Source of the DNA: Brassica napus | Lineage: Eukaryota; Streptophyta; Magnoliopsida; Brassicales; Brassicaceae | Reading direction: 5' to 3' | Length of the DNA: 64,000 bases | NCBI RefSeq assembly: GCF_020379485.1 | Contig: NW_026014713.1 | Location: 124,001-188,000 of the forward strand | Shown here: one piece after another, positions 385 through 64,000 of the stretch | How the letters are laid out: each line of letters starts with the position of its first letter | Position numbering within the stretch: position 1 is the first letter of the stretch | Notes under the pieces: generated by a model | Told to the model about the DNA's origin: nothing | The model's input: the letters and a program-made list of their open reading frames with translations, nothing else | Database searches by the model: none | Translations under genes and position numbers: made by a program

Positions 385-494
385 CTCCCCCTCAAGCTTG
401 ACCATGTAGAACAAGTCAAGCTTGGAATCCATGAAGACCTCCCTCATTAAAAACCTCACCAAGGAAAACCCATTGGGATAAAACCTTGATGAGG
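385..494 (-). promoter_or_regulatory. E1 polypurine tract with two upstream stem-loops
   Basis: The polypurine tract GAGGGGGAG (minus strand) occupies 385-393 and abuts the LTR; it should prime plus-strand DNA synthesis. Stem-loop 2 pairs 393-402 with 415-424 (CAAGCTTGAC/GTCAAGCTTG). Stem-loop 1 pairs 454-464 with 484-494 (CCTCATCAAGG/CCTTGGTGAGG on the minus strand) and encloses a small inner CCC/GGG stem. The same module is found in every element whose 3' end is visible. Confidence 0.8.
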
Positions 495-526
495 GAAAAA
501 GAGTGGAGACTCCATGGTTAAGGGGC

Positions 527-4813: not shown

Positions 4814-5282
4814 TATACACTTTTGTGTATTAGAGTGTGTTTAAGAACAATCAGATTGTTTTGTGTAAGATTAAAGAGATTAAGAGAATAAGTAGAGAGA
4901 GAATAGAGAGAATACTCAAAACTCCATTGATTAATTTAATGTCTCAGATACAAGTTATATATGAAGAGATAAGGATAATACAAAGAGGATTTCGAAATCA
5001 TAAGCATGTGAAGTCAAGGGATAGGCTGTAAAGATGCTTCACATGCTTGGACAGGCTGTAAAGGTGCTTTACCTTTCCAGCTATGACCAGACCTTATCCA
5101 AACTACTCCTTCCTTATCCAGACTTCCTCTTGGGCGTGATCCACTCTCCAAAGGGATGCAAAGTAACTTCCTAAGCTTTTAACTTAGTTACCACAGTCAA
5201 ACCGAAGTTACTGTGGTAAAACTCCAAAGTTACTATCTGCCCCAATACTCTTCCTCTATCAATGTATCACCTCTTCTCAACA
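4814..5282 (-). repeat. E1 5' LTR (469 bp)
   Basis: Direct copy of 1-384 plus the part outside the window. It starts TGTTGAG and ends GTATA on the minus strand, so termini are TG...TA. A TATA-like run lies at 4955-4962 with TTTCGAAA about 25 bp upstream of it. It lacks the GTAC-core cluster seen in the other LTR families. Confidence 0.93.
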
Positions 5283-8200: not shown

Positions 8201-8641
8201 GACAGGAGATCAACCACAGGCTATTGCACATTCATTGGAGGCAACTTGGTGACATGGAAGAGTAAGAAGCAGAAGGTGGTCTCTTGCTCAAGTGCAGAAG
8301 CTGAGTATAGAGCTATGCTGAAGCTTACCAACGAGTTGGTGTGGATCAAAGGCATCTTGAAGCATTTGGAGATTGATCAAGCCACGCCAATGACAATGCA
8401 TTGTGATAACCAAGCAGCCATTCACATTGCATCCAACTCGGTGTTTCATGAGAGAACCAAGCACATTGAAGTTGATTGCCACAAGGTGAGGCAAATGATC
8501 ATTCTAGGAGTCATCTTGCCATGTTACACGAGGAGTGAAGATCAGTTGGCTGATGTGTTCACCAAGGCTGCAAGACAGAAGACAATGGAGTCCATTCATA
8601 TCAGGTTGGGCCTCATTGATCTTGGGAAGAGAAGGAGCTGA
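5283..8641 (+). pseudogene. E2 pol remnant (protease to RNase H), frameshifted
   Basis: Continues an E4-like polyprotein from the gag/protease spacer: protease DSGASHHM (Asp codon 5393), integrase HARLGHPH, CEACILGKH, SDNGGEY and NGVAERKN, RT YVDD near 7672, and an RNase H region. Compared with E4 there is a 1-bp loss in a T run near 6434, shifting frame, and a net 56-bp deletion near 7547, between GLE and QSPRAWY, removing about 19 RT codons and shifting frame again. Two conserved Asp are changed to Asn in RNase H (CDANWAGN instead of CDADWAGD), and FIDEK is FIVEK in integrase. The stop at 8639-8641 is the family's normal end. Not functional. Confidence 0.92.
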
Positions 8642-8673
8642 TCCTCTTGTCTGTGAGGTCTTTACTCTTTTTC

Positions 8674-8781
8674 CCTCATCAAGGTTTTGTCCCAATGGGT
8701 TTTCCTTGGTGAGGTTTTTAATGAGGAAGATCTCATAGCCATCCAAGCTTAGACTTTCACAAAGCTAAGCCTGAGGGGGAG
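8674..8781 (+). promoter_or_regulatory. E2 3' module: two stem-loops and polypurine tract
   Basis: Stem-loop 1 pairs 8674-8684 (CCTCATCAAGG) with 8704-8714 (CCTTGGTGAGG), with an inner CCCAATGGG hairpin in the loop. Stem-loop 2 pairs 8744-8752 (CAAGCTTAG) with 8765-8773 (CTAAGCCTG, one mismatch). The polypurine tract GAGGGGGAG is 8773-8781, directly against the LTR. Confidence 0.8.
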
Positions 8782-9383
8782 TGTTGAGATGAGTTGATAC
8801 ATTTGAAGTAAAGACACAAAGGAGTTGAGAACATAAAGAGAGCAAAGGAGTTAAGAGGAGGAATGGGTTGATAGAGATGGTACGGACGGAGAGGCCGTAC
8901 CAGGCCGTACAAGTGATCATCCGTACAAGGTAAAAGAGACCAAGTAACTATCCAAGTAACTTCTATGTACTGAGCTTAAGTTACACTTGGCCAAGACCTT
9001 ATCCGAACGTTGAGAGGATAAGGGAGACGCGGCTTGACAGCTAGGACAGGCTGGCAAGAGCTGGAAAGGAAGAGCATCTAGTCTTGGATCAAGAAGATGC
9101 TCCAAACGTGTGGAGACACTCATTGGTCGGTTCAAATTAAAGCTTAGGCTCCCCTTTGACTCTACATGCTTACTTATCTTTATGAGTTCGAAAACCCTAA
9201 GTGTATGAACCTATATATATGTAATCTCATCCATTAATAAAGATTAGACAGTTCTAAACAATCTCTCTCTTTACTCATTTCATTATGATTCTCCATTAGT
9301 CTCTAATCTGTCTCTTAATCTCTTATTCTCCGTCTATAATCCTTTCTAAACTCAGATAATCATTTACATCCTTAAATCTCATA
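8782..9383 (+). repeat. E2 3' LTR (602 bp)
   Basis: Starts TGTTGAG and ends CTCATA (TG...TA). It is similar throughout to the E4 LTRs. It contains a GTAC-core cluster (about 8880-8930), TTCGAA near 9186, a TATA run at 9212-9219 and AATAAA near 9236. Confidence 0.93.
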
Positions 9384-10263
9384 CCTATGAGATTTATTCC
9401 ACTTCCTGGTGATTCTCCACTTCTTTATGTATCCAAATACATTTTCTTAGATCGCGATTCATCCTGGTTTGATCAGAATGACGAGGAAGTTTTCATATTC
9501 CCAAACAGGAAAACTGGGATCACCTGATTTGAAAGTGGGATAACTTCTTCATCCTAATTCCTATGAGAATTATTCCACTTCCTGGTGATTCTCCACTACT
9601 TTTTGTATACAAATACATCTTCTTACATCGCGATTCATCCTGATTTGATTAGAATGACGAGGAAGTTGTCATATTCCCAAACAGGAAAACTGGGATCACC
9701 TGATTTGAAAGTGGGATAACTTCTTCATCCTAATTCCTATGAGAATTATTCCACTTCCTGGTGATTCTCCACTACTTTTTGTATACAAATACAGCTTCTT
9801 ACATTGCGATTAATCCTGATTTGATTAGAATGACGAGGAAGTTGTCATATTCCCAAACAGGAAAACTGGGGTCACCTGATTTTAAAGTGGGATAACTTCT
9901 TCATCCCAATTTCTATGAGATTAATTCCACTTCCTGGTGATTCTCCACTTCTTTATGTATCCAAATACATCTTCTTACATCGCGATTCATCCTGGTTTGA
10001 TTAGAATGACGAGGAAGTTGTCATATTCCCAAACAGGAAAACTGGGATCACCTGATTTGAAAGTGGGATAACTTCTTCATCCTAATTCCTATGAGAATTA
10101 TTCCACTTCCTGGTGATTCTCCACTACTTTTTGTATAGAAATACAGCTTCTTACATCGCGATTCATCCTGATTTGATTAGAATGACGAGGAAGTTGTCAT
10201 ATTCCCAAACAGGAAAACTGGGATCACCTGATTTGAAAGTGGGATAACTTCTTCATCCTAATT

Positions 10264-11495
10264 CCTATGAGATTTATTCCACTTCCTGGTGATTCTCCAC
10301 TTCTTTATGTATCCAAATATAGCTTCTTACATCACAATTCATCCTGGTTTGATCAGAATGACGAGGAAATTGTCATATTCCAAAACAGGAAAACTGGGAT
10401 CACCTGATTTGAAAGTGGGATAACTTCTTCATCCTAATTCCTATGAGATTTATTCCACTTCCTGGTGATTCTCCACTTCTTTATGTATCCAAATACATCT
10501 TCTTACATCGCGATTCATCCTGGTTTGATTAGAATGACGAGGAAGTTGTCATATTCCCAAACAGGAAAACTGGGATCACCTGATTTGAAAGTGGGATAAC
10601 TTCTTCATCCTAATTCCTATGAGAATTATTCCACTTCCTGGTGATTCTCCACTACTTTTTGTATACAAATACAGCTTCTTACATCGCGATTCATCCTGAT
10701 TTGATTAGAATGACGAGAAAGTTGTCATATTCCCAAACAGGAAAACTGGGATCACCTGATTTGAAAGTGGGATAACTTCTTCATCCTAATTCCTATGAGA
10801 TTTATTCCACTTCCTGGTGATTCTCCACTTCTTTATGTATCCAAATACATCTTCTTACATCGCGATTCATCCTGGTTTGATTAGAATGACGAGGAAGTTG
10901 TCATATTCCCAAACAGGAAAACTGGGATCACCTGATTTGAAAGTGGGATAACTTCTTCATCCTAATTCCTATGAGAATTATTCCACTTCCTGGTGATTCT
11001 CCACTACTTTTTGTATCCAAATACATCTTCTTACATCGCGATTCATCCTGGTTTGATTAGAATGACGAGGAAGTTGTCATATTCCCAAACAGGAAAACTG
11101 GGATCACCTGATTTGAAAGTGGGATAACTTCTTCATCCTAATTCCTATGAGATTTATTCCACTTCCTGGTGATTCTCCACTTCTTTATGTATCCAAATAC
11201 ATCTTCTTACATCGCGATTCATCCTGGTTTGATTAGAATGACGAGGAAGTTGTCATATTCCCAAACAGGAAAACTGGGATCACCTGATTTGAAAGTGGGA
11301 TAACTTCTTCATCCTAATTCCTATGAAAATTATTCCACTTCCTGGTGATTCTCCACTACTTTTTGTATACAAATACAGCTTCTTACATCGCGATTCATCC
11401 TGGTTTGATTAGAATGACGAGGAAGTTGTCATATTCCCAAACAGGAAAACTGGGATCACCTGATTTGAAAGTGGGATAACTTCTTCATCCTAATT
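10264..11495. repeat. Satellite higher-order repeat, copy 1 (7 monomers)
   Basis: Order of diagnostic variants: [ATAGC + GATC], [ACATC], [TATAC/ACAGC + CCTGA], [ACATC], [CTACTTTTTGTATCC hybrid], [ACATC], [TATAC/ACAGC + CCTGG]. The same seven-step order follows immediately in copy 2. Confidence 0.75.
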
Positions 11496-12726
11496 CCTAT
11501 GAGATTTATTCCACTTCCTGGTGATTCTCCACTTCTTTATGTATCCAAATATAGCTTCTTACATCGCGATTCATCCTGGTTTGATCAGAATGACGAGGAA
11601 GTTGTCATATTCCCAAACAGGAAAACTGGGATCACCTGATTTGAAAGTGGGATAACTTCTTCATCCTAATTCCTATGAGATTTATTCCACTTCCTGGTGA
11701 TTCTCCACTCTTTATGTATCCAAATACATCTTCTTACATCGCGATTCATCCTGGTTTGATTAGAATGACGAGGAAGTTGTCATATTCCCAAACAGGAAAA
11801 CTGGGATCACCTGATTTGAAAGTGGGATAACTTCTTCATCCTAATTCCTATGAGAATTATTCCACTTCCTGGTGATTCTCCACTACTTTTTGTATACAAA
11901 TACAGCTTCTTACATCGCGATTCATCCTGATTTGATTAGAATGACGAGGAAGTTGTCATATTCCCAAACAGGAAAACTGGGATCACCTGATTTGAAAGTG
12001 GGATAACTTCTTCATCCTAATTCCTATGAGATTTATTCCACTTCCTGGTGATTCTCCACTTCTTTATGTATCCAAATACATCTTCTTACATCGCGATTCA
12101 TCCTGGTTTGATTAGAATGACGAGGAAGTTGTCATATTCCCAAACAGGAAAACTGGGATCACCTGATTTGAAAGTGGGATAACTTCTTCATCCTAATTCC
12201 TATGAGAATTATTCCACTTCCTGGTGATTCTCCACTACTTTTTGTATCCAAATACATCTTCTTACATCGCGATTCATCCTGGTTTGATTAGAATGACGAG
12301 GAAGTTGTCATATTCCCAAACAGGAAAACTGGGATCACCTGATTTGAAAGTGGGATAACTTCTTCATCCTAATTCCTATGAGATTTATTCCACTTCCTGG
12401 TGATTCTCCACTTCTTTATGTATCCAAATACATCTTCTTACATCGCGATTCATCCTGGTTTGATTAGAATGACGAGGAAGTTGTCATATTCCCAAACAGG
12501 AAAACTGGGATCACCTGATTTGAAAGTGGGATAACTTCTTCATCCTAATTCCTATGAGAATTATTCCACTTCCTGGTGATTCTCCACAACTTTTTGTATA
12601 CAAATACAGCTTCTTACATCGCGATTCATCCTGGTTTGATTAGAATGACGAGGAAGTTGTCATATTCCCAAACAGGAAAACTGGGATCACCTGATTTGAA
12701 AGTGGGATAACTTCTTCATCCTAATT
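11496..12726. repeat. Satellite higher-order repeat, copy 2 (7 monomers)
   Basis: Repeats the subtype order of 10264-11495 in register, with a 1-bp loss in the second unit and CTCCACAAC in place of CTCCACTAC in the last. Confidence 0.75.
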
Positions 12727-14465
12727 CCTATGAGAATTATTCCACTTCCTGGTGATTCTCCACTTCTTTATGTATTCAAATACATCTTCTTACATCGCGA
12801 TTCATCCTGGTTTGATTAGAATGACGAGGAAGTTGTCATATTCCCAAATCGGAAAACTGGGATCACCTGATTTGAAAGTGGGATAACTTCTTCATCCTAA
12901 TTCCTATGAGAATTATTCCACTTCCTGGTGATTCTCCACTACTTTTTGTATACAAATACAGCTTCTTACATCGCGATTCATCCTGATTTGATTAGAATGA
13001 CGAGGAAGTTGTCATATTCCCAAACAGGAAAACTGGGATCACCTGATTTGAAAGTGGGATAACTTCTTCATCCTAATTCCTATGAGAATTATTCCACTTC
13101 CTGGTGATTCTCCACTACTTTTGTATACAAATACAGCTTCTTACATCGCGATTCATCCTGATTTGATTAGAATGACGAGGAAGTTGTCATATTCCCAAAC
13201 AGGAAAACTGGGATCACCTGATTTGAAAGTGGGATAACTTCTTCATCCTAATTCCTATGAGATTCTCCACTTCTTTATGTATCCAAATACATCTTCTTAC
13301 ATCGCGATTCATCCTGGTTTGATTAGAATGACGAGGAAGTTGTCATATTCCCAAACAGGAAAACTGGGATCACCTGATTTGAAAGTGGGATAACTTCTTC
13401 ATCCTAATTCCTATGAGAATTATTCCACTTCCTGGTGATTCTCCACTACTTTTTGTATACAAATACAGCTTCTTACATCGCGATTCATCCTGATTTGATT
13501 AGAATGACGAGGAAGTTGTCATATTCCCAAACAGGAAAACTGGGATCACCTGATTTGAAAGTGGGATAACTTCTTCATCCTAATTCCTATGAGATTTATT
13601 CCACTTCCTGGTGATTCTCCACTACTTTTTGTATCCAAATATAGCTTCTTACATCGCGATTCATCCTGGTTTGATCAGAATGACGAGGAAGTTGTCATAT
13701 TCCCAAACAGGAAAACTGGGATCACCTGATTTGAAAGTGGGATAACTTCTTCATCCTAATTCCTATGAGATTTATTCCACTTCCTGGTGATTCTCCACTT
13801 CTTTATGTATCCAAATATAGCTTCTTACATCGCGATTCATCCTGGTTTGATTAGAATGACGAGGAAGTTGTCATATTCCGAAACAGGAAAACTGGGATCA
13901 CCTGATTTGAAAGTGGGATAACTTCTTCATCCTAATTCCTATGAGAATTATTCCACTTCCTGGTGATTCTCCACTACTTTTTGTATACAAATACAGCTTC
14001 TTACATCGCGATTCATCCTGATTTGATTAGAATGACGAGGAAGTTGTCATATTCCCAAACAGGAAAACTGGGGTCACCTGATTTGAAAGTGGGATAACTT
14101 CTTCATCCTAATTCCTATGAGATTAATTCCACTTCCTGGTGATTCTCCACTTCTTTATGTATCCAAATACATCTTCTTACATCGCGATTCATCCTGGTTT
14201 GATTAGAATGACGAGGAAGTTGTCATATTCCCAAACAGGAAAACTGGGATCACCTGATTTGAAAGTGGGATAACTTCTTCATCCTAATTCCTATGAGAAT
14301 TATTCCACTTCCTGGTGATTCTCCACTACTTTTTGTATACAAATACAGCTTCTTACATCGCGATTCATCCTGATTTGATTAGAATGACGAGGAAGTTGTC
14401 ATATTCCCAAACAGGAAAACTGGGATCACCTGATTTGAAAGTGGGATAACTTCTTCATCCTAATT

Positions 14466-15521
14466 CCTATGAGATTTATTCCACTTCCTGGTGATTCTCC
14501 ACTTCTTTATGTATCCAAATATAGCTTCTTACATCGCGATTCATCCTGGTTTGATCAGAATGACGAGGAAGTTGTCATATTCCCAAACAGGAAAACTGGG
14601 ATCACCTGATTTGAAAGTGGGATAACTTCTTCATCCTAATTCCTATGAGAATTATTCCACTTCCTGGTGATTCTCCACTACTTTTTGTATACAAATACAG
14701 CTTCTTACATCGCGATTAATCCTGATTTGATTAGAATGACGAGGAAGTTGTCATATTCCCAAACAGGAAAACTGGGATCACCTGATTTGAAAGTGGGATA
14801 ACTTCTTCATCCTAATTCCTATGAGATTTATTCCACTTCCTGGTGATTCTCCACTTCTTTATGTATCCAAATACATCTTCTTACATCGCGATTCATCCTG
14901 GTTTGATTAGAATGACGAGGAAGTTGTCATATTCCCAAACAGGAAAACTGGGATCACCTGATTTGAAAGTGGGATAACTTCTTCATCCTAATTCCTATGA
15001 GAATTATTCCACTTCCTGGTGATTCTCCACTACTTTTTGTATCCAAATACATCTTCTTACATCGCGATTCATCCTGGTTTGATTAGAATGACGAGGAAGT
15101 TGTCATATTCCCAAACAGGAAAACTGGGATCACCTGATTTGAAAGTGGGATAACTTCTTCATCCTAATTCCTATGAGATTTATTCCACTTCCTGGTGATT
15201 CTCCACTTCTTTATGTATCCAAATACATCTTCTTTCATCGCGATTCATCCTGGTTTGATTAGAATGACGAGGAAGTTGTCATATTCCCAAACAGGAAAAC
15301 TGGGATCACCTGATTTGAAAGTGGGATAACTTCTTCATCCTAATTCCTATGAGATTTATTCCACTTCCTGGTGATTCTCCACAACTTTTTGTATACAAAT
15401 ACAGCTTCTTACATCGCGATTCATCCTGGTTTGATTAGAATGACGAGGAAGTTGTCATATTCCCAAACAGGAAAACTGGGATCACCTGATTTGAAAGTGG
15501 GATAACTTCTTCATCCTAATT
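14466..15521. repeat. Satellite higher-order repeat, copy 3 (6 monomers, second unit missing)
   Basis: Same order as copies 1 and 2 but without the second monomer. The last unit carries the CTCCACAAC variant also found in copy 2. Confidence 0.7.
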
Positions 15522-16041
15522 CCTATGAGAATTATTCCACTTCCTGGTGATTCTCCACTACTTTTTGTATACAAATACAGCTTCTTACATCGCGATTCAT
15601 CCTGATTTGATTAGAATGACGAGGAAGTTGTCATATTCCCAAACAGGAAAACTGGGATCACCTGATTTGAAAGTGGGATAACTTCTTCATCCTAATTCCT
15701 ATGAGAATTATTCCACTTCCTGGTGATTCTCCACTACTTTTTGTATACAAATACAGCTTCTTACATTGCGATTAATCCTGATTTGATTAGAATGACGAGG
15801 AAGTTGTCATATTCCCAAACAGGAAAACTGGGGTCACCTGATTTTAAAGTGGGATAACTTCTTCATCCTAATTCCTATGAGATTAATTCCACTTCCTGGT
15901 GATTCTCCACTTCTTTATGTATCCAAATACATCTTCTTACATCGCGATTCATCCTGGTTTGATTAGAATGACGAGGAAGTTGTCATATTCCCAAACAGGA
16001 AAACTGGGATCACCTAATTTGAAAATGGGATAACTTGTTCA

Positions 16042-16998
16042 TGTTGAACTGAAGAGAAGATAGAGCTTGTACAATAATAGGGCAAGCTCTAGAAGATGTC
16101 CAGAAGAGTTCAATAAAGCTTCAGAAGTGTTCTGAAGTAGTTATCTTGTGAAGTTAAGTCTAGGAAAGACTTAGACTGATCATGTGAAGGGTTTGGAGGA
16201 GTTAGAGAGAAGATGGCCATAGGTGCAAAGCTAGGGCGAGTGGTACAGCCATGGTACGGCCTTGTACGGTCTAGGGTGAATCATGAAGGTGTTTGGGGAC
16301 AGTCAAGAAGGAGATAAGGCATTGTGCATAGTTAGGGATAGTGGTACGGACAGGAGGTCCGTACCATCAACCGTACGGCCACTCCACACGCCCAAGTCAC
16401 CCGGTTCAGCTTAAATCAAAGATGAGCAATGTGAGGGCGGTTTACTCGGATCCAATCCTATCTTAAGTGACCGTTGGAGGCTTATGGAGGGAAGGAATAT
16501 ACCTGAGCATCTTGTGGTCCAAGAGACAGGCTGGAAAGGGAAAAGAAGCTTTACCTTTACAGCCAAGACTCATCTCCTCCCTTCATTCAAAAGAAGCAAT
16601 CTGAGCCTCCCATTTGAATCAGCCACGCCAGCTAGCACCAGAAACATCAAGACCAGTCTTCTCTCATCCTTACCATCCATTCTATCTTTTATTTACAGCC
16701 TTAGGATCTAGGTTTGTGATCTGAGTTGTGTAAAGGCATATATAAGCCTCTTATGATCATTTTGTAATCTTTAAGTGAGTAAGGGGGGAAACCCTTCTCC
16801 TTCATGTTTTATGAAAGTCTGTTCTTGATACTAAGTCTCTAATCTATTCTCTAAGTCTCTCAGTCTCTTTAATCTTGTTACCTAGTCTCTTTCATACTCT
16901 AAATCTCTCCCCATACTCCTAAGTCTCAAATCTGTTCACATAAACTCTCCTAAACACTTTCTCACACACACCTTGAGTGAATCCTTATAAAAGTCTCA
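16042..16998 (+). repeat. E3 5' LTR (957 bp)
   Basis: TGTTGAA...GTCTCA, followed without gap by the primer-binding site. Contains GTAC-core repeats (about 16250-16270 and 16340-16375) and a TATATAA box at 16739-16745. A 75-codon open frame inside has no support as a gene. Confidence 0.88.
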
Positions 16999-19855: not shown

Positions 19856-19963
19856 CTCCCCCTCAAGCTTAGCTTTGTAAAAGCCTAAGCTTGGATGGCT
19901 ATGAGATCTTCCTCATTAAAAACCTCACCAAGGAAAACCCATTGGGACAAAACCTTGATGAGG
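19856..19963 (-). promoter_or_regulatory. E4 polypurine tract and two stem-loops
   Basis: Polypurine tract at 19856-19864. Stem-loop 2 pairs 19864-19872 with 19885-19893 (CAAGCTTAG/CTAAGCTTG). Stem-loop 1 pairs 19923-19933 with 19953-19963. Confidence 0.8.
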
Positions 19964-19995
19964 GAAAAAGAGTAAAGACCTCACAGCCAAGAGGA

Positions 19996-32694: not shown

Positions 32695-32726
32695 TCCCCT
32701 TAGTCATGAGATCTTTACTCTTTTTC

Positions 32727-32834
32727 CCTCATTAAGGTTTTGTCCCAATGGGTTTTCCTTAGTGAGGTTTTTAATGAGGAAGATCTCATGGCTGTCCAAG
32801 CTTAGTCTTTCACAAAGCTAAGCTTGAGGGGGAG
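32727..32834 (+). promoter_or_regulatory. E6 3' module: two stem-loops and polypurine tract
   Basis: Stem-loop 1 pairs 32727-32737 (CCTCATTAAGG) with 32757-32767 (CCTTAGTGAGG); here the seventh pair is T-A where other elements have C-G, a compensatory change. Stem-loop 2 pairs 32797-32805 with 32818-32826. Polypurine tract at 32826-32834. Confidence 0.82.
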
Positions 32835-36538: not shown

Positions 36539-36570
36539 GCCCCTTAACCATGGAGTCTCCACTCTTTTTC

Positions 36571-36680
36571 CCTCATCAAGGTTTTATCCCATTGGGTTTT
36601 CTTTGGTGAGGTTTTTAATGAGGGAGGTCTTCATGGTTTCCAAGCTTGACTTGTTCTACATGGTCAAGCTTGAGGGGGAG
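36571..36680 (+). promoter_or_regulatory. E5 3' module: two stem-loops and polypurine tract
   Basis: Stem-loop 1 pairs 36571-36581 (CCTCATCAAGG) with 36601-36611 (CTTTGGTGAGG), with a G-U wobble at the tenth pair. Stem-loop 2 pairs 36641-36650 (CAAGCTTGAC) with 36663-36672 (GTCAAGCTTG), perfect. Polypurine tract at 36672-36680. Confidence 0.82.
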
Positions 36681-38550: not shown

Positions 38551-38662
38551 CTCCCCCTCAAGCTTGACTTTAGTTGATCCTAAGTCAAGCTTGGAACCTT
38601 GAAGAACTTCCTCATTAAAAACCTCACCAAGGAAAACCCTTTGGGACAAAACCTTGATGAGG
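38551..38662 (-). promoter_or_regulatory. E7 polypurine tract and two stem-loops
   Basis: Polypurine tract at 38551-38559. Stem-loop 2 pairs 38559-38570 (CAAGCTTGACTT) with 38582-38593 (AAGTCAAGCTTG), 12 perfect pairs. Stem-loop 1 pairs 38622-38632 with 38652-38662. The module is the same as in the coding elements. Confidence 0.82.
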
Positions 38663-39005
38663 GAAAAAGAGTAAAGTCTCCAAGGCCTAGGGATTGGCCA
38701 GTGAGTCTTTGTGCCTTACCAACAATGTAAGGGATGCAAAGACTCTGGATCATGGCCTCTTCATTCTCCCCACGCCTTGTACTCTCCTTACTGCCTGATC
38801 TTGGTCTCTCCCCCTTTCACCTAACCTCTTGTTAGGTTAAAGTGCTTGGACACACCAGATTAGCCTCTTCTTGGAGATACAACACTCTTGCTGAGTCTTG
38901 GCTGCTTCTTCATCCTTCATCATACTTCCCAACAGGTTGCTTCCTCTTCTAGAATAACCACCAAGCTCATTCTGATCATATAAGCTTCAACACTTCTTAG
39001 CCTCT
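38663..39005 (-). other. E7 internal region near its 3' end, non-coding
   Basis: No gene seen. Closely similar to 62974-63390 of E11, which has extra sequence. The duplication cctct (39001-39005) marks the E8 insertion. Confidence 0.8.
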
Positions 39006-40487: not shown

Positions 40488-40593
40488 CTCCCCCTCAAGC
40501 TTAGCTTTGTGAAGTCTAAGCTTGGACACTATGAGATCTTCCTCATTAAAAACCTCACCAAAGAAAACCCATTGGGACAAAACTTTGATGAGG
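40488..40593 (-). promoter_or_regulatory. E9 polypurine tract and two stem-loops
   Basis: Polypurine tract at 40488-40496. Stem-loop 2 pairs 40496-40504 with 40516-40524. Stem-loop 1 pairs 40553-40563 with 40583-40593; its tenth pair is A-T where E2, E4 and E7 have G-C. Confidence 0.82.
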
Positions 40594-40624
40594 GAAAAAG
40601 AGTAAAGACCTCATAGTAAGGGGC

Positions 40625-46588: not shown

Positions 46589-47201
46589 TGTTGAGATGTG
46601 TTGAGGTATATGTGAAGGCATTGAGGAGTTAAGGACATGAGAAAGCTAAGGAGTGAAAGGAAAGGGAGTTAAGAGTAAACTAAGGCATGGTACGGACGGG
46701 CCATCCGTACACTGACCGTACCAAGGTAAAACTAGGATGGTAACTTCACCGAGTAACTCTTATGGACCGAGGTGAAGTTACACTCGACCAAAAGCTTATC
46801 CAGACGTTGGAGTGGATAAGGGAGGCGCGGCTTGACAGCTAGGACAGGCTGGCAAGGGCTGGAAAGGAAGAGCATCTTGGACCAGGATCAGGAAGATGCC
46901 CGAACGTGTGAAGCTAGTCATTGGCCGGTTCAAACAAAAGCAAAGGCTCTTCCCTTGACCTCACATGCTTATCTACTCTTGTGTTTCGAAAACCCTAATG
47001 TCTAGAACAATATAAATATGTAACCTCACTCATTAATAAGATCATACAGTTCTGAGTCTCTCTCTAATTTCCTAAGTCACCATGATTCTCTCTTAGACAC
47101 TAAACAGCTCTCAAGTCTCTTAATCTTTCATAATCTCTTCCTAATCTCTACTTAAACTCTTACTTATATTCTAGTTACTCTAAGGATCTCTAAATATCAT
47201 A
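46589..47201 (+). repeat. E10 5' LTR (613 bp)
   Basis: TGTTGAG...TATCATA (TG...TA). GTAC-core cluster at about 46687-46722, TTTCGAAA near 46984, TATAAATA at 47011-47018. Confidence 0.95.
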
Positions 47202-47418: not shown

Positions 47419-50400
47419 ATGGAACATGGTATGAACATGAGGATGAAGGTAGCGGTTACTTTCAAAGGTAACAACTACCTTGTGTGGTCTCGGATGGTGA
47501 AGACTGCGGTGGGAAGTAAGGGTTTGTGGGGGCACATCACAACAGGGGAGGCTCCGAAACTCATTACTCAGGGAGGAGATCAAGAAGAGGTCTCCAATGA
47601 AGTGGCTGTAGAGAAATGGCAACAAGAAGACATGCTGGTGATGACGGTTTTACACGCATCCTTGGATCCAGCTATCTTGGATGCCTACAGCTACTGTGAA
47701 TCAGCCAAGGAGCTGTGGGACACGCTGAAGAAGGTGTATGGGAACATCTCCAACCTCAGCCGTGTGTTTGAAGTGAAGCAAGCTATCAACCGTCTAGTAC
47801 AAGAGGATATGGAGTTCACTAAGCACTTGGGAAGGTTCAGGTCCTTATGGTCAGAACTGGAGATGCTGAGGCCGAGCACAACTGATCCTGATCAGTTGAA
47901 TGAGAGGCGTGAGCAAGATAAGGTCTTTGGGCTGCTTCTCACGTTGAACCCGGCCTACACTCAACTCATCCAGCACATGTTAAGGGCTGACAAGCTTCCG
48001 GACCTTGAGGATGTGTGTGCGCAAATCCAAAGGGAGCAAGGGTCTATGGGGTTGTTTGGAGGAAAGGGGGAGCTCTCTCTTGCCAATCAGGCAGCTCATG
48101 AGGACTTAACCGAAGCTCCACAAGCTAACAAGGCATCTCACGGGAAGTATGAGGACAGGAAGTTCAATGGTAACTGTGATCATTGCAAGAAGCATGGTCA
48201 TAAGAAGAGCCAATGTTGGATACTACACCCACACCTCAAGCCGGCCAAGTTCATGAAGGAGCGTGAGGGAAGGGCAAATGTGACTGAAGGATCAAGTGGA
48301 GCTGGCACCATCAAGACAAGTGAGGTGGATGGTCATGGAGGCAATGATGGGAATGGGAAGTCTCTGGTGGCTTACACAGGCGCCTCAAGCTCATGCAGCA
48401 ACAATGACTACATCAGGAGATCAGACCTTGATGCACTCTTCAAAATGCTAAAGGAAAACGGTAACACTTATGGTTATTCCTTTGGAGCCTCTATGATTGC
48501 ATATAAGGATGATCACTTGATTAGAGAACTAGTAGAACGGTTAGAAGCTAGGAATGAGTATAGATATGCACACATTGCTAGAAATGATAGGATGTCTCCA
48601 TCACTTAGTAATCTATGTCATAATGCTAAACGAGTAGATAAACCATTGATTATTGATTCTGGTGCATCACATCATATGATAAGTGATGAGAAACTGATTA
48701 AGGATATAGAACCTACTCATGGGCATGTAATGATAGCAAATGGAGATAAGATACCTATTAAGGGAATAGGGAAGCTTAAGTTGTTTAACAAAGAATCTAA
48801 AGCTTTTTACATGCCTGAATTCACATCAAACCTATTATCTGTAAAGAAATGTACTAATGATTTACAATGCAATGTTATCTTTAGTCCTAATGATGTGAAA
48901 TTTCAGGATATTGAGAGCAGTAGATTGATTGGGAAAGGAGTGACTAAAGGAGATCTCTATATGCTTGAAGAACTCACTTCTGTTCCTGATTATAGTTGCT
49001 CGTTTACTTCTGCTTCTTTGTTGAATAAACATGCATTGTGGCATGCTAGAGTAGGACACCCTCATGTTAAAGCTTTGAACTTAATGGTACCAGGTGTTGT
49101 GTTTGAAAACAAAAATTGTGAAGCTTGCATTTTAGGCAAGCATTGTAGGAATGTGTTTCAAAAGTCTACTACCGTTTATGAGAATTGCTTTGATCTAGTT
49201 CATTCAGATGTGTGGACTGCCCCTTGCTTATCTAGAGATAGCTATAAGTATTTTGTCACATTCATTGATGAAAAATCCAAATACACCTGGTTAACCTTAA
49301 TTCAGACCAAAGATAGGGTGCTTGATGCATTTAGGAACTTTCAAACTTATGTGACTAACCATTATCATGCTAAGATTAAAATTTTGAGATCAGATAATGG
49401 AGGAGAGTACACAAGCAATGCATTCAAGCAACACTTATCACAATATGGGATTCTACATCAAACAAGTTGTCCGTATACTCCACAGCAAAATGGAGTGGCT
49501 GAGAGGAAGAATAGGCACCTCATGGAGGTGGCAAGGTCACTTATGTTTCAGAGTAACGTTCCAAAGAGATTTTGGAGTGATGCGGTTGCCACTGCTTGTT
49601 ACTTGATCAATAGAACTCCAACCAAGATTCTGAATGAGAAGGCTCCATTTGAAGTTCTAAACAAGTACAAGCCAGTTCTTGATTACTTGAAAGTCTTTGG
49701 ATGTCTATGCTTTGTGCTCAAGCCAGGAGAGATGCGCAACAAGCTAGAAGCAAGAAGTACCAAGGCTGTATTCATAGGATACTCAGCTACACAGAAAGGA
49801 TACAAGTGCTATGATCCTATAGCAAGAAGAGTACTTGTATCTAGAGACGTGAAGTTCTTAGAAGATAGAGGGTACTATGAAGAAAAGAATCAAGAAGACC
49901 TGAAGGACTTAACATCAGACAAGGCCACCACCTTGCGGATCATCCTTGAAGGTCTTGGAATCAGTACATCCCAGGATCCAAGAGATCACACGACTACACC
50001 TCCTGAAGTTGGTTCACCATCCCACCTTGATCATGAGGGAGGAGAGGAGCATGAAGAGCCTATACAAGAGGCTAACCAAGATGAAGGAGGAGTAGAGAAC
50101 GAAGGAGAAGAGAGCATAGGTTCTGATGGTCATGGGCATGATCATGGTGTGATACAAACACCTTCTCAAAACGAAGTGGTAGAAGAAGCACAGGAAGAAG
50201 AACCGGTTGTGCAGCCACTAAGAAGGAGTACAAGGATAAAGAAGGATCCTTCTAGCTGGGTAAACACGAGAGTGTACTACAATGCCCAAGCTGTGGAGCA
50301 TCCTTCTCAAGCCGTGTGCTCCTTTGCTCAATATCCAGAAGCACATTGTGCTTTCATGGTAAACTTGGATGAGAATCACATCCCAAGAAGCTATGAAGAG

Positions 50401-51933
50401 GCAATGAAGGATAAGGAATGGAAGGAATCAGTAGGAGCTGAGGCAGGAGCTATGATAAAGAATGATACATGGTATGAGAGTGAACTACCAAAAGGGAAGA
50501 AGGCAGTGTCTAGTAGATGGATCTTCACAATCAAATACAAGGCTGATGGACAGATTGAGAGGAAGAAAACTAGATTAGTAGCAAGAGGGTTCACTCAGAC
50601 ATATGGGGAGGATTACATTGAGACATTTGCCCCTGTAGCTAAGCTACACACCATTAGGATTGTTCTAAGCTTGGCGGTTAATCTTGGATGGGGATTGTGG
50701 CAAATGGATGTAAAGAATGCATTCTTACAAGGGGAACTTGAGGATGAAGTCTACATGTATCCTCCGCCAGGTCTAGACCATCTAGTGAAGAAAGGGAATG
50801 TACTGAGGTTAAAGAAGGCTATCTATGGCTTAAAGCAGTCACCAAGAGCGTGGTATAACAAGTTGAGCACAACTTTGAATGGACGTGGCTTCAGGAAGTC
50901 AGAGTTAGATCACACACTCTTCACCCTCACTACACCCTCAGGTATGGTTGCTCTCCTTGTGTATGTGGATGATATCATTATCACAGGTAGTGATAAGGAG
51001 GGTATCAAAGCAACCAAGGAGTTTCTCAAATCCATGTTTGAAATCAAAGATTTGGGAGAAATGAAATACTTTCTTGGAATTGAGATTTGTAGATCCAAGG
51101 AAGGGTTATTCATGTCCCAAAGGAAGTATACACTTGATCTTTTGAAAGATGCAGGTGCTTATGGAGGCAAGACAGCAAGGATGCCTATGGAGGATGGCTA
51201 CAAAGTACCAAGAGAGGGGGAGATTGAAGACAGCAAGCCATTTCATGATCCTAAACTCTATAGAAAACTTGTTGGCAAATTGATTTACCTTACCATCACA
51301 AGACCTGACATATGTTTTGCTGTGAATCAGGTGAGTCAACATATGCAGCTTCCCAAGGAACATCATTGGCACATGGTGGAGAGGCTACTGATGTATCTGA
51401 ATGGCTCGCCAGATCAAGGAGTCTGGATGGGGTGCAATGGAAGCACTGAAGTGGTGGGCTATTGTGATGCTGATTGGGCAGGAGATAGAGCTGATAGGAG
51501 ATCAACAACCGGCTATTGCACATTCATTGGAGGCAACTTAGTTACATGGAAGAGTAAGAAGCAGAAGGTGGTCTCTTGCTCAAGTGCTGAAGCTGAGTAT
51601 AGAGCTATGCTGAAGCTTACCAACGAGCTGGTGTGGATCAAAGGCATCTTGAAGCATTTGGAGATTGATCAAGCCGCACCTATGACAATGCATTGTGATA
51701 ACCAAGCAGCTATTCACATTGCCTCCAACTCGGTGTTTCATGAGAGAACCAAGCACATTGAAGTTGATTGTCACAAGGTGAGGCAGATGATCATCCTAGG
51801 AGTCATCTTACCATGCTACACTCGGAGTGAAGATCAGTTGGCTGATGTGTTCACTAAGGCTGCAAGACAAAAGACTATGGAGTCCATTCACATTAGATTG
51901 GGACTCATAGATCTTGGGAAGAGAAGGAGCTGA
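47419..51933 (+). CDS. E10 gag-pol polyprotein, intact
   Basis: One 1504-residue Copia polyprotein. Gag core FTKHLGRFRSLWSELEMLRP; CCHC zinc knuckle CDHCKKHGHKKSQC from residue 253; protease DSG at 413; integrase zinc His and Cys at 542 and 567; catalytic D597, D659 and E695 (D-x35-E); RT YVDD at 1182-1185; RNase H D1350 (DADW), E1391 (SSAEAEY) and the later CDNQAA. Ends LGKRRS. No stop or shift. The start is MEHGMNMRMKVAV, about 200 bp after the primer-binding site. A strongly acidic linker (about residues 860-930) separates integrase from RT, as in relatives. Together with near-identical LTRs this looks like a potentially active copy. Confidence 0.97.
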   Translation: MEHGMNMRMKVAVTFKGNNYLVWSRMVKTAVGSKGLWGHITTGEAPKLITQGGDQEEVSNEVAVEKWQQEDMLVMTVLHASLDPAILDAYSYCESAKELWDTLKKVYGNISNLSRVFEVKQAINRLVQEDMEFTKHLGRFRSLWSELEMLRPSTTDPDQLNERREQDKVFGLLLTLNPAYTQLIQHMLRADKLPDLEDVCAQIQREQGSMGLFGGKGELSLANQAAHEDLTEAPQANKASHGKYEDRKFNGNCDHCKKHGHKKSQCWILHPHLKPAKFMKEREGRANVTEGSSGAGTIKTSEVDGHGGNDGNGKSLVAYTGASSSCSNNDYIRRSDLDALFKMLKENGNTYGYSFGASMIAYKDDHLIRELVERLEARNEYRYAHIARNDRMSPSLSNLCHNAKRVDKPLIIDSGASHHMISDEKLIKDIEPTHGHVMIANGDKIPIKGIGKLKLFNKESKAFYMPEFTSNLLSVKKCTNDLQCNVIFSPNDVKFQDIESSRLIGKGVTKGDLYMLEELTSVPDYSCSFTSASLLNKHALWHARVGHPHVKALNLMVPGVVFENKNCEACILGKHCRNVFQKSTTVYENCFDLVHSDVWTAPCLSRDSYKYFVTFIDEKSKYTWLTLIQTKDRVLDAFRNFQTYVTNHYHAKIKILRSDNGGEYTSNAFKQHLSQYGILHQTSCPYTPQQNGVAERKNRHLMEVARSLMFQSNVPKRFWSDAVATACYLINRTPTKILNEKAPFEVLNKYKPVLDYLKVFGCLCFVLKPGEMRNKLEARSTKAVFIGYSATQKGYKCYDPIARRVLVSRDVKFLEDRGYYEEKNQEDLKDLTSDKATTLRIILEGLGISTSQDPRDHTTTPPEVGSPSHLDHEGGEEHEEPIQEANQDEGGVENEGEESIGSDGHGHDHGVIQTPSQNEVVEEAQEEEPVVQPLRRSTRIKKDPSSWVNTRVYYNAQAVEHPSQAVCSFAQYPEAHCAFMVNLDENHIPRSYEEAMKDKEWKESVGAEAGAMIKNDTWYESELPKGKKAVSSRWIFTIKYKADGQIERKKTRLVARGFTQTYGEDYIETFAPVAKLHTIRIVLSLAVNLGWGLWQMDVKNAFLQGELEDEVYMYPPPGLDHLVKKGNVLRLKKAIYGLKQSPRAWYNKLSTTLNGRGFRKSELDHTLFTLTTPSGMVALLVYVDDIIITGSDKEGIKATKEFLKSMFEIKDLGEMKYFLGIEICRSKEGLFMSQRKYTLDLLKDAGAYGGKTARMPMEDGYKVPREGEIEDSKPFHDPKLYRKLVGKLIYLTITRPDICFAVNQVSQHMQLPKEHHWHMVERLLMYLNGSPDQGVWMGCNGSTEVVGYCDADWAGDRADRRSTTGYCTFIGGNLVTWKSKKQKVVSCSSAEAEYRAMLKLTNELVWIKGILKHLEIDQAAPMTMHCDNQAAIHIASNSVFHERTKHIEVDCHKVRQMIILGVILPCYTRSEDQLADVFTKAARQKTMESIHIRLGLIDLGKRRS

Positions 51934-51965
51934 TCCCCTAAGTCATGAGGTCTTTACTCTTTTTC

Positions 51966-52073
51966 CCTCATCAAAGTTTTGTCCCAATGGGTTTTCTTTG
52001 GTGAGGTTTTTAATGAGGAAGATCTCATGGCTGTCCAAGCTTAGACTATCATAAAGCTAAGCTTGAGGGGGAG
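51966..52073 (+). promoter_or_regulatory. E10 3' module: two stem-loops and polypurine tract
   Basis: Stem-loop 1 pairs 51966-51976 (CCTCATCAAAG) with 51996-52006 (CTTTGGTGAGG). Stem-loop 2 pairs 52036-52044 with 52057-52065. Polypurine tract at 52065-52073. Confidence 0.82.
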
Positions 52074-56132: not shown

Positions 56133-56164
56133 GCCCCTTGGCTATGAGGTCTTTACTCTTTTTC

Positions 56165-56272
56165 CCTTACCAAAGTTTTGTCCCAATGGGTTTTCTTTGG
56201 TGAGGTTTTTAATGAGGAAGATCTCATGGCTATCCAAGCTTAGACTTTCACAAAGCTAAGCTTGAGGGGGAG
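56165..56272 (+). promoter_or_regulatory. E8 3' module: two stem-loops and polypurine tract
   Basis: Stem-loop 1 pairs 56165-56175 (CCTTACCAAAG) with 56195-56205 (CTTTGGTGAGG). Compared with E2, one T-G pair became C-G, one C-G became T-G and one G-C became A-T, all still pairing. Stem-loop 2 pairs 56235-56243 with 56256-56264. Polypurine tract at 56264-56272. Confidence 0.82.
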
Positions 56273-62861: not shown

Positions 62862-62973
62862 CTCCCCCTCAAGCTTGACTTTAGCTGATCCTAAGTCAAG
62901 CTTGGAACCTTGAAGAACTTCCTCATTAAAAACCTCACCAAGGAAAACCCTTTGGGACAAAACCTTGATGAGG
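62862..62973 (-). promoter_or_regulatory. E11 polypurine tract and two stem-loops
   Basis: Polypurine tract at 62862-62870. Stem-loop 2 pairs 62870-62881 (CAAGCTTGACTT) with 62893-62904. Stem-loop 1 pairs 62933-62943 with 62963-62973. Confidence 0.8.
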
Positions 62974-64000
62974 GAAAAAGAGTAAAGTCTCCAAGGCCTA
63001 GGGATTGGCCAGTGAGTCTTTGTGCCTTACCAACAATGTAAGGGACACAAAGACTCTGGATCATGGCCTCTTCATTCTTCCCATGCCTTGTACTCTCCTT
63101 ACTGCCTGATCTTGGCCTCTCCCCCTTTCACCTAACCTCTTGTTAGGTTGAAGTGTTCGGACACACCAGATCAGCCTCTTCTTGGAGATACAACACTCTT
63201 GCTGAGTCTTGGCTGCTTCTTCTTCTTCTAGAGTCGCCACCTTGTTGCTGGAACTACATGAGGATGCTTCAGCCACTCTCCAATCACCTCAACACTTGAA
63301 GCCGCCTTGGACATTGCTTCTTCATCCTTCATCATACTTCCCAACAGGTTGCTTCCTCTTCTAGAATAACCACCAAGCTCATTCTGATCATGTAAGCTTC
63401 AACACTCCCCCTCAAGCTTGAGACTCTCACAGGAACAAGCTTGAACGGATGGCTTCATGATCAACACACACACACCATTGCAGCCTCTTCTTGAACTCGC
63501 CATCTTGAATGGAATGCTTGTGGAAGCCTCAGCTATCTCTTCAACCACCTCACACTAGAAGCCGCCTTGATAGAGTAGCCTTAATCTTCTCACAGCCAAG
63601 AGTACTCTGTCTTAGTTTGAGTACTCTCTTGAATAGACTCGCCACAGCCTAAACCCGGATGGCTCCTTCTTCAGGTGCTTGCAATGGACTTCTTGGATCG
63701 CCTAGGAAGCTCACTCAACTCCCCTCCTCAAGCTTGGCCTAATCTAGGTTCAAGCTTGAAGTGAGCTTCAGTGAGACTTCACACCAGTGGCGCCATATCA
63801 CACTAGTAACCACTCTCCATTGCACACACAATGGGCAACAAGTCTTCCTCTTATACTCGGATGGATGGTGAGCAAAGAACACTTCTTGTGAACCTGAAAC
63901 ATCACTCAAACTCCAGCAAAGATAAGACACAATAGTATTGGGATCAATCCTTGATTAATCATCAAGTTTGATTCCCAATATCACAAGCATTGCAACAGAT
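62974..64000 (-). other. E11 internal region, non-coding
   Basis: About 1 kb to the window end with no gene. Similar to E7 internal sequence (38663-39000, then 58730-59240). It contains a second polypurine/CAAGCTTG module at 63405-63443 and a weaker one at about 63722-63757. Confidence 0.75.

Follow-up and report, generated by a model that had tools for sequence, protein, structure and literature searches.

The window, i.e., the whole 64,000-nucleotide stretch of Brassica napus DNA that was analyzed, contains ten visible 3′ ends of Copia elements, each of which carries a predicted ~97-nt hairpin followed by a polypurine tract and then the start of an LTR (Table 1; copies are designated by the start of the 5′ arm of their 11-bp stem). 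In the one unbroken ORF tested, the Pfam domains Retrotran_gag_2, rve, and RVT_2 occur in the order of Ty1/Copia elements, and residues 1010-1504 of the protein are 97-98% identical to several B. napus and B. carinata proteins, with two others nearer still. In all eight copies with a readable pol end, the fold lies between the stop codon and the polypurine tract; the distance from the pol stop to the 5′ arm, given as 30-100 bp in an earlier note on this DNA, is 31-32 nt in these copies. The GGGGGAG of the tract starts 99-105 nt past the 5′ arm start in the window copies. The remaining two copies stand in non-coding elements and retain the stem, as previously claimed. The presumed internal stretches of the 38662 copy gave no pol match (tblastn, E 1e-3) and no stop-free run of >130 amino acids; for the 62973 copy, of which only ~1 kb (63005-64000) is in reach, no pol match was obtained at the same threshold and the longest stop-free run is 75 amino acids.

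The insertions in the window appear to be mostly young, judging by the likeness of their LTRs. The LTR copies of the 51966 element, at 46589 and 52074, are identical over the 400 bp compared, and LTR starts (up to 400 bp) are likewise 100% alike for the 19963 element and, over 303 bp, for the 32727 element, 99-99.5% alike for 36571, 38662, 40593, and 56165, and 92% alike for 494; no close LTR partner of the 8674 and 62973 elements was found within the window. In the 38662 element, ~23 kb separates the two LTRs, and further elements are nested in between. At 9384-16042, next to nested Copia elements, stand 38 copies of a 176-bp satellite, which resemble a centromere array of Brassica.

Table 1. 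Positions of the fold, its parts, and its copies in the window (ENE, element for nuclear expression)
Feature	Position	Strand	Basis or remark
Whole double-domain ENE-like fold, 8674 copy	8648..8744	+	Covariance-model match 1-97; fold z -5.6
Basal stem 5′ arm, unpaired A at 8664	8648..8667	+	Fold and covariation
Loop 1, 5′ side UUUUUC	8668..8673	+	Us invariant in 10 window copies
Middle stem 5′ arm (stem of the earlier note)	8674..8684	+	Fold and covariation
Loop 2, 5′ side UUUUGU; fifth base G or A within window	8685..8690	+	Copy comparison
Cap hairpin CCC-AAU-GGG	8691..8699	+	Fold and covariation
Loop 2, 3′ side UUUU	8700..8703	+	Copy comparison
Middle stem 3′ arm	8704..8714	+	Fold and covariation
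Loop 1, 3′ side UUUUUAAU	8715..8722	+	Copy comparison
Basal stem 3′ arm	8723..8741	+	Fold and covariation
Second covarying hairpin, directly 5′ of polypurine tract	8744..8773	+	
Polypurine tract GAGGGGGAG	8773..8781	+	3′ LTR begins 8782
Fold copy, 5′ arm start 32727	32701..32797	+	Fold and covariance-model match
Fold copy, 5′ arm start 36571	36545..36642	+	Fold and covariance-model match
Fold copy, 5′ arm start 51966; unbroken ORF 47419-51933	51940..52036	+	Covariance-model match
Fold copy, 5′ arm start 56165	56139..56235	+	Fold and covariance-model match
Fold copy, 5′ arm start 494 (element sense)	423..520	-	Fold and covariance-model match
Fold copy, 5′ arm start 19963	19893..19989	-	Fold and covariance-model match
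Fold copy in non-coding element, 5′ arm start 38662	38592..38687	-	Fold and covariance-model match
Fold copy, 5′ arm start 40593	40523..40619	-	Fold and covariance-model match
Fold copy, second element without readable pol end, 5′ arm start 62973	62903..62998	-	Fold and covariance-model match

Architecture of the 3′ fold

The earlier note described an 11-bp stem at 8674-8684 and 8704-8714, and these coordinates are correct, but, in the predicted structure, this stem-loop is the middle helix of a larger, ~97-nt fold of which only part had been noticed. From the outside in, all ten window copies comprise a basal stem of 19 pairs, loop 1 (UUUUUC opposite UUUUUAAU), the 11-bp stem, loop 2 (UUUUGU or UUUUAU opposite UUUU), and a CCC/GGG cap. 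Both U-rich internal loops thus lie within one hairpin, and in the centroid folds of all ten copies a U-rich internal loop is flanked by a helix on each side. The 11-bp stem recurs at every visible 3′ end, including the nine beyond the 8674 copy. Its tenth pair is G-C in six of the ten copies, A-U in three, and G-U in one, and its seventh pair in the 32727 copy is U-A, both as the earlier note gave them; the 56165 copy has further changes absent from that note, its fourth pair being U-G and its sixth C-G.

An alternative pairing of CCTCAT in the stem with a downstream ATGAGG, proposed in the earlier note as a switch, has a probability of 0.000 in all ten copies within a 550-nt context, and part of this ATGAGG is taken up by the basal stem. 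The second hairpin (8744-8773, and the same place in other copies) varies in step between its arms; its 26 distinct sequences average -13.7 kcal/mol, versus -3.1 for base shuffles. CCCC past the stop, ~30 nt before the arm in the window copies, could pair with the GGGGG of the polypurine tract, and with more context this pairing dominates in four of the ten copies only (32727, 36571, 51966, and 56165). A closed three-way junction formed by the tract and CCCC, although present in minimum-energy folds, is on this count not claimed.

Folding strength, U-tract conservation, and covariation

When 101 nt around each window copy were folded (ten copies, nine distinct sequences), every copy folded better than all 200 of its own dinucleotide shuffles, with z from -4.8 to -7.7. 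These shuffles, together with the zero matches of reversed patterns genome-wide (see below), rule out a chance hairpin. Minimum-energy folds shut two weak pairs in loop 1, between Us of the 5′ tract and the AA of UUUUUAAU; centroids keep loop 1 open. The weakest pair of the middle stem, evaluated in a 550-nt context, reaches a probability of 0.69 in the 38662 copy and 0.99 in the other nine. This longer context leaves the 5′ U tract of loop 1 unpaired with a probability of 0.71-0.76 in those nine; in the 38662 copy the value is 0.27, and the tract is mostly paired elsewhere.

The U tracts vary least. Since the search patterns preset the 5′ U tracts and the CCC for loci L009-L057 of the 57 fetched from the genome, tract conservation was judged only on the 3′ tracts and the ten window copies. 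All 18 tract Us are invariant in the window copies, which were located by their stem arms rather than by these tracts. The 3′ U tracts, fixed by no search pattern, deviate in 6 of 459 cells across 51 distinct rows; in the same rows, the cap loop deviates in 22 of 153 cells and six columns of the 3′ arm of the stem in 50 of 306. In one locus (L008), one U tract is shorter by one, and loop 2 tolerates G, A, or U directly after UUUU. Among the window copies, the fold region shows a mean identity of 87% across 45 pairs, or 88-89% when restricted to the 28 comparisons between the eight coding copies. Those 28 comparisons give 82% in the terminal 900 bp of pol, and the LTR averages 57% over its initial 300 bp (45 pairs).

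Covariation was assessed with a covariance model built from six window copies, a model that favors its own structure. Matches at E 1e-6 in the window and all 57 fetched loci numbered 76, giving 57 distinct rows in which 95.5% of cells are paired. The corresponding values are 82.8% for shuffles and 42.0-54.0% for slid versions; kinship among the rows inflates the shuffle tests, yet the slid controls retain this kinship and score far lower. Pairs changed on both sides amount to 23 of 33 (14.9 in shuffles), cells changed on both sides to 200 (47.8), and the covariation score to 0.388 (0.159), and none of the five measures was reached by any of 500 shuffles. Most of the covariation lies in the basal stem, which the earlier note overlooked and which has 16 of the 23 doubly changed pairs, the other seven being in the middle stem. 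At the four pairs that flank the loops, C-G or G-C is found in 55, 55, 55, and 53 of the 57 rows (columns 21-82, 29-72, 40-62, and 47-56, respectively).

The 57-locus count was taken as the headline because an intermediate count, on 39 of the 57 loci, although it too showed compensatory change in excess of its controls, omitted duplicates, L039, and four broken-arm copies (L042, L043, L047, and L048). A smaller count before it (the window and eight loci; 20 matches, or 18 places, since two of the eight loci overlap) gave 97.1% of cells paired and ten pairs changed on both sides versus 4.8 (0 of 500 shuffles); at least as many pair types were attained by 24 of 500 shuffles, and each of the other four measures by none. 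In the first count, of 18 rows, neither doubly changed pairs (53 of 500 shuffles as high) nor pair types (454 of 500) exceeded shuffles; eight of its 18 rows were weak reverse-strand matches, and the count was set aside.

The excess of compensatory change over both shuffle and slide controls agrees with the earlier claim that selection acts on structure rather than on protein. A purely DNA-level hairpin, either a cruciform or a copied hairpin insertion, would leave the RNA without a role and attribute the likeness of the copies to recent common descent, which would suit young copies whose LTR pairs are, for several elements, identical or at least 99% alike. Such an origin is, however, scarcely credible: many of the changed pairs are G-U, better suited to RNA (U-G occurs in 14 rows at each of two basal pairs, for example), the fold is kept across elements whose LTRs average the low identity given above, and the loops are retained in families with largely different stems.

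Genome-wide copies, variant stems, and a Ty3/Gypsy element

Exact matches to a 31-base core pattern number 1,225 genome-wide, compared with zero for the reversed pattern. The half pattern CTCTTTTTCCC-8N-GTTTTNTCCC, which specifies the 5′ half only and leaves the 3′ arm unconstrained, occurs at 4,886 places (2,411 + 2,475) in the 997-Mb genome, again with no match of the reversed control. Loci fetched from the pattern searches were the first places in contig order rather than a random sample. At the first 30 half-pattern places, the 3′ arm forms 11 of 11 pairs in 26 and 10 of 11 in four (the arm position could shift by -1 to +2, and three rows used +1); the inner eight pairs average 7.93, versus 5.16 with swapped arms. 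Arm position 3 is other than U at just 12 places, 11 of which each lack at least one pair. The twelfth, L039, also one of the 57 loci, proved to be a chance match of the pattern without such a fold.

Stems other than that of the window were also found. A different arm, CCTATCTTTGG, with its partner CCAAAGATAGG, occurs at eight of the 30 places and departs from the Copia arm in six of 11 pairs, five of them on both sides; the basal stem of these copies also differs, save for CTC/GAG beside the loop. A third stem, CCTCAATGTGG/CCATATTGATG, with 10 of 11 pairs, occurs in L051 and L052. These two loci have a Copia-like 3′ end and no pol match directly 5′ of the fold, and they may represent a further, non-coding family. 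No related locus was found in a viral contig set searched with the protein and two patterns, or in a genome contig set searched with the protein and one pattern. No Rfam family reached threshold in the window, the best loose-threshold matches on 8600-8800 having E values of 3 and above, and a known Rfam family was therefore dismissed as the identity of the fold.

One CCTATCTTTGG copy, in L031, lies after a Ty3/Gypsy-type integrase (Pfam H2C2, rve, and Tf2-1-like SH3) and within an ~830-bp repeat that recurs 5.88 kb away in L032; the fold stands near position 1500 of each locus. In L031, the repeat stands after the integrase frame and a purine-rich tract, and in L032 it is followed by TGGTATCAGAGC, which we take to be a primer site for initiator tRNA-Met; these positions indicate that the repeat is an LTR. 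The Gypsy frame continues across the purine-rich tract and terminates within the 3′ LTR, 38 nt short of the arm, so that the fold lies 3′ of the tract, inside the LTR. Loops, cap, and flank are those of the Copia copies, and the stems are largely different; in the Gypsy copies, the 5′ tracts and the CCC were set by the pattern, and the 3′ tracts, GGG, and flank were free.

The position and the loops of the Gypsy fold bear on two further readings. An aid to reverse transcription, in which the fold and the tract-adjoining hairpin shape the plus-strand priming site, would account for a covarying hairpin next to the polypurine tract and for a C-rich stretch past the stop that is able to pair with the Gs of the tract, and a role of this kind has been proposed in Sireviruses, where an inverted repeat adjoins the tract (PMC2829016). 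Yet the tract and the C-rich stretch pair predominantly in a minority of the window copies, the Gypsy fold stands on the other side of its purine-rich tract, and the U tracts would be left unexplained, making this reading highly unlikely. A packaging or dimerization signal, bound by Gag or pairing between two genomes, with the U-rich loops as mere spacers, is also very unlikely. Copies without pol retain the fold, as expected of a signal for borrowing Gag from a coding relative, and from its position the fold should be present in genomic RNA; on the other hand, it is the U tracts that vary least and the stem letters that change together with their partners, and the same loops occur with largely other stems in a Ty3/Gypsy LTR, where action of a Copia Gag is unexpected.

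The cassette common to Copia elements (with and without pol) and the Gypsy element consists of the U-rich loops, a cap that is most often CCCAAUGGG, and the flank AA(U/C)GAG, and this sharing is the least expected part of the results. It may reflect exchange, descent from a common source, or independent origins under constraint. Because the cap and flank seem to exceed what a triplex needs, a tentative proposal, to which we give somewhat less than even weight, is that the cassette was passed between the superfamilies by recombination or was rebuilt repeatedly to one optimum, and that it may help to explain which Copia elements fill Brassica centromeres.

Candidate double-domain ENEs and comparison with known systems

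In a double-domain ENE, two ENE domains are contained in one hairpin. ENEs (elements for nuclear expression) are 3′ UTR hairpins whose U-rich internal loops bind the poly(A) tail to form a triple helix (PMC12501189), and the term double-domain ENE is used in PMC10855403. Judged by anatomical likeness, the window fold is very probably a double-domain ENE in the 3′ UTR of Ty1/Copia elements, a reading carried by the fold, the pair counts, and the parallel with the Evade element discussed below. Against it stand the asymmetry of loop 2 (six versus four bases, the Us being interrupted by a G or A), the 3′ LTR that separates the fold from the tail, and both the weak pairs in loop 1 of the minimum-energy folds and the mostly paired 5′ tract of the 38662 copy. 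Packaging, dimerization, or reverse transcription, the roles suggested in the earlier note, which passed over the two U-rich internal loops, are not the best guess, since such loops mark an ENE and the same ones occur in a Ty3/Gypsy LTR.

If the window fold acts as an ENE, the transcript would form a long hairpin interrupted by two U-rich internal loops. The poly(A) tail, added past the 3′ LTR, would fold back and thread both loops, and in each of them it would join the two U tracts in U.A-U triples. The end of the tail would thereby be hidden from deadenylases, and the longer-lived RNA would give rise to more cDNA and new insertions. The triplex, the protection from deadenylation, and the gain in transposition are inferred from the literature on ENEs and on Evade. 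In the case of action as in Evade, the elements would guard their own RNA against deadenylation, and the fold would be a cis-acting part, retained also by elements without pol. The thousands of half-pattern places, some with replaced stems, constitute a natural mutant series for the rules of triplex formation, and the Copia/Gypsy pair offers a means of testing whether RNA parts are exchanged between superfamilies. ALE (Copia) and CRM elements are reported to have invaded the centromeres of B. rapa, where the Copia insertions are young (PMC10106856), so that RNA stability may bear on centromere change; Tal1, termed ATCOPIA93-related, inserts into centromere satellites (PMC5857280).

ENEs in LTR elements, including Evade, were already known, and the well-supported addition here is the Brassica Copia case; in the openly licensed literature, as far as titles and the beginnings of abstracts indicate, no paper on these Brassica copies was found. 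About 200 ENE motifs linked to LTR elements, the majority from plants and fungi, were described by Tycowski in 2016, as recounted in PMC12501189, and the Brassica fold resembles them in its association with LTR elements. The double-domain ENE of TWIFB1 sits in a rice hAT DNA transposon (PMC10855403), in contrast to the LTR elements that carry the Brassica fold. An inverted repeat at the polypurine tract is described for Sireviruses and many classic Ty1/copia elements (PMC2829016), and the second hairpin of the window resembles it in being a stem-loop at the tract. The Sirevirus repeat is distinct from the ENE-like fold; it includes part of the tract, and the description drawn on here mentions no U-rich internal loops.

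The closest parallel is Evade (Copia93) of Arabidopsis thaliana, in which a fold-back between the ORF and the 3′ LTR bears four U-rich tracts in internal loops (PMC12501189). With A20 in vitro, the Evade ENE forms a triplex with two-phase melting, for which the Us and the adjoining G-C pairs are required, and its deletion lowers RNA stability and half-life, linear DNA, and copy number (PMC12501189). The Brassica Copia fold shares with it the Ty1/Copia setting, the spacer between ORF and 3′ LTR, the four U-rich tracts, and the G-C pairs beside them (PMC12501189), a likeness of layout, and it differs in belonging to another host genus, Brassica. Furthermore, whereas Evade is termed the sole ENE bearer among the elements transcribed in ddm1 (PMC12501189), the Brassica pattern extends to thousands of half-pattern places and to two superfamilies.
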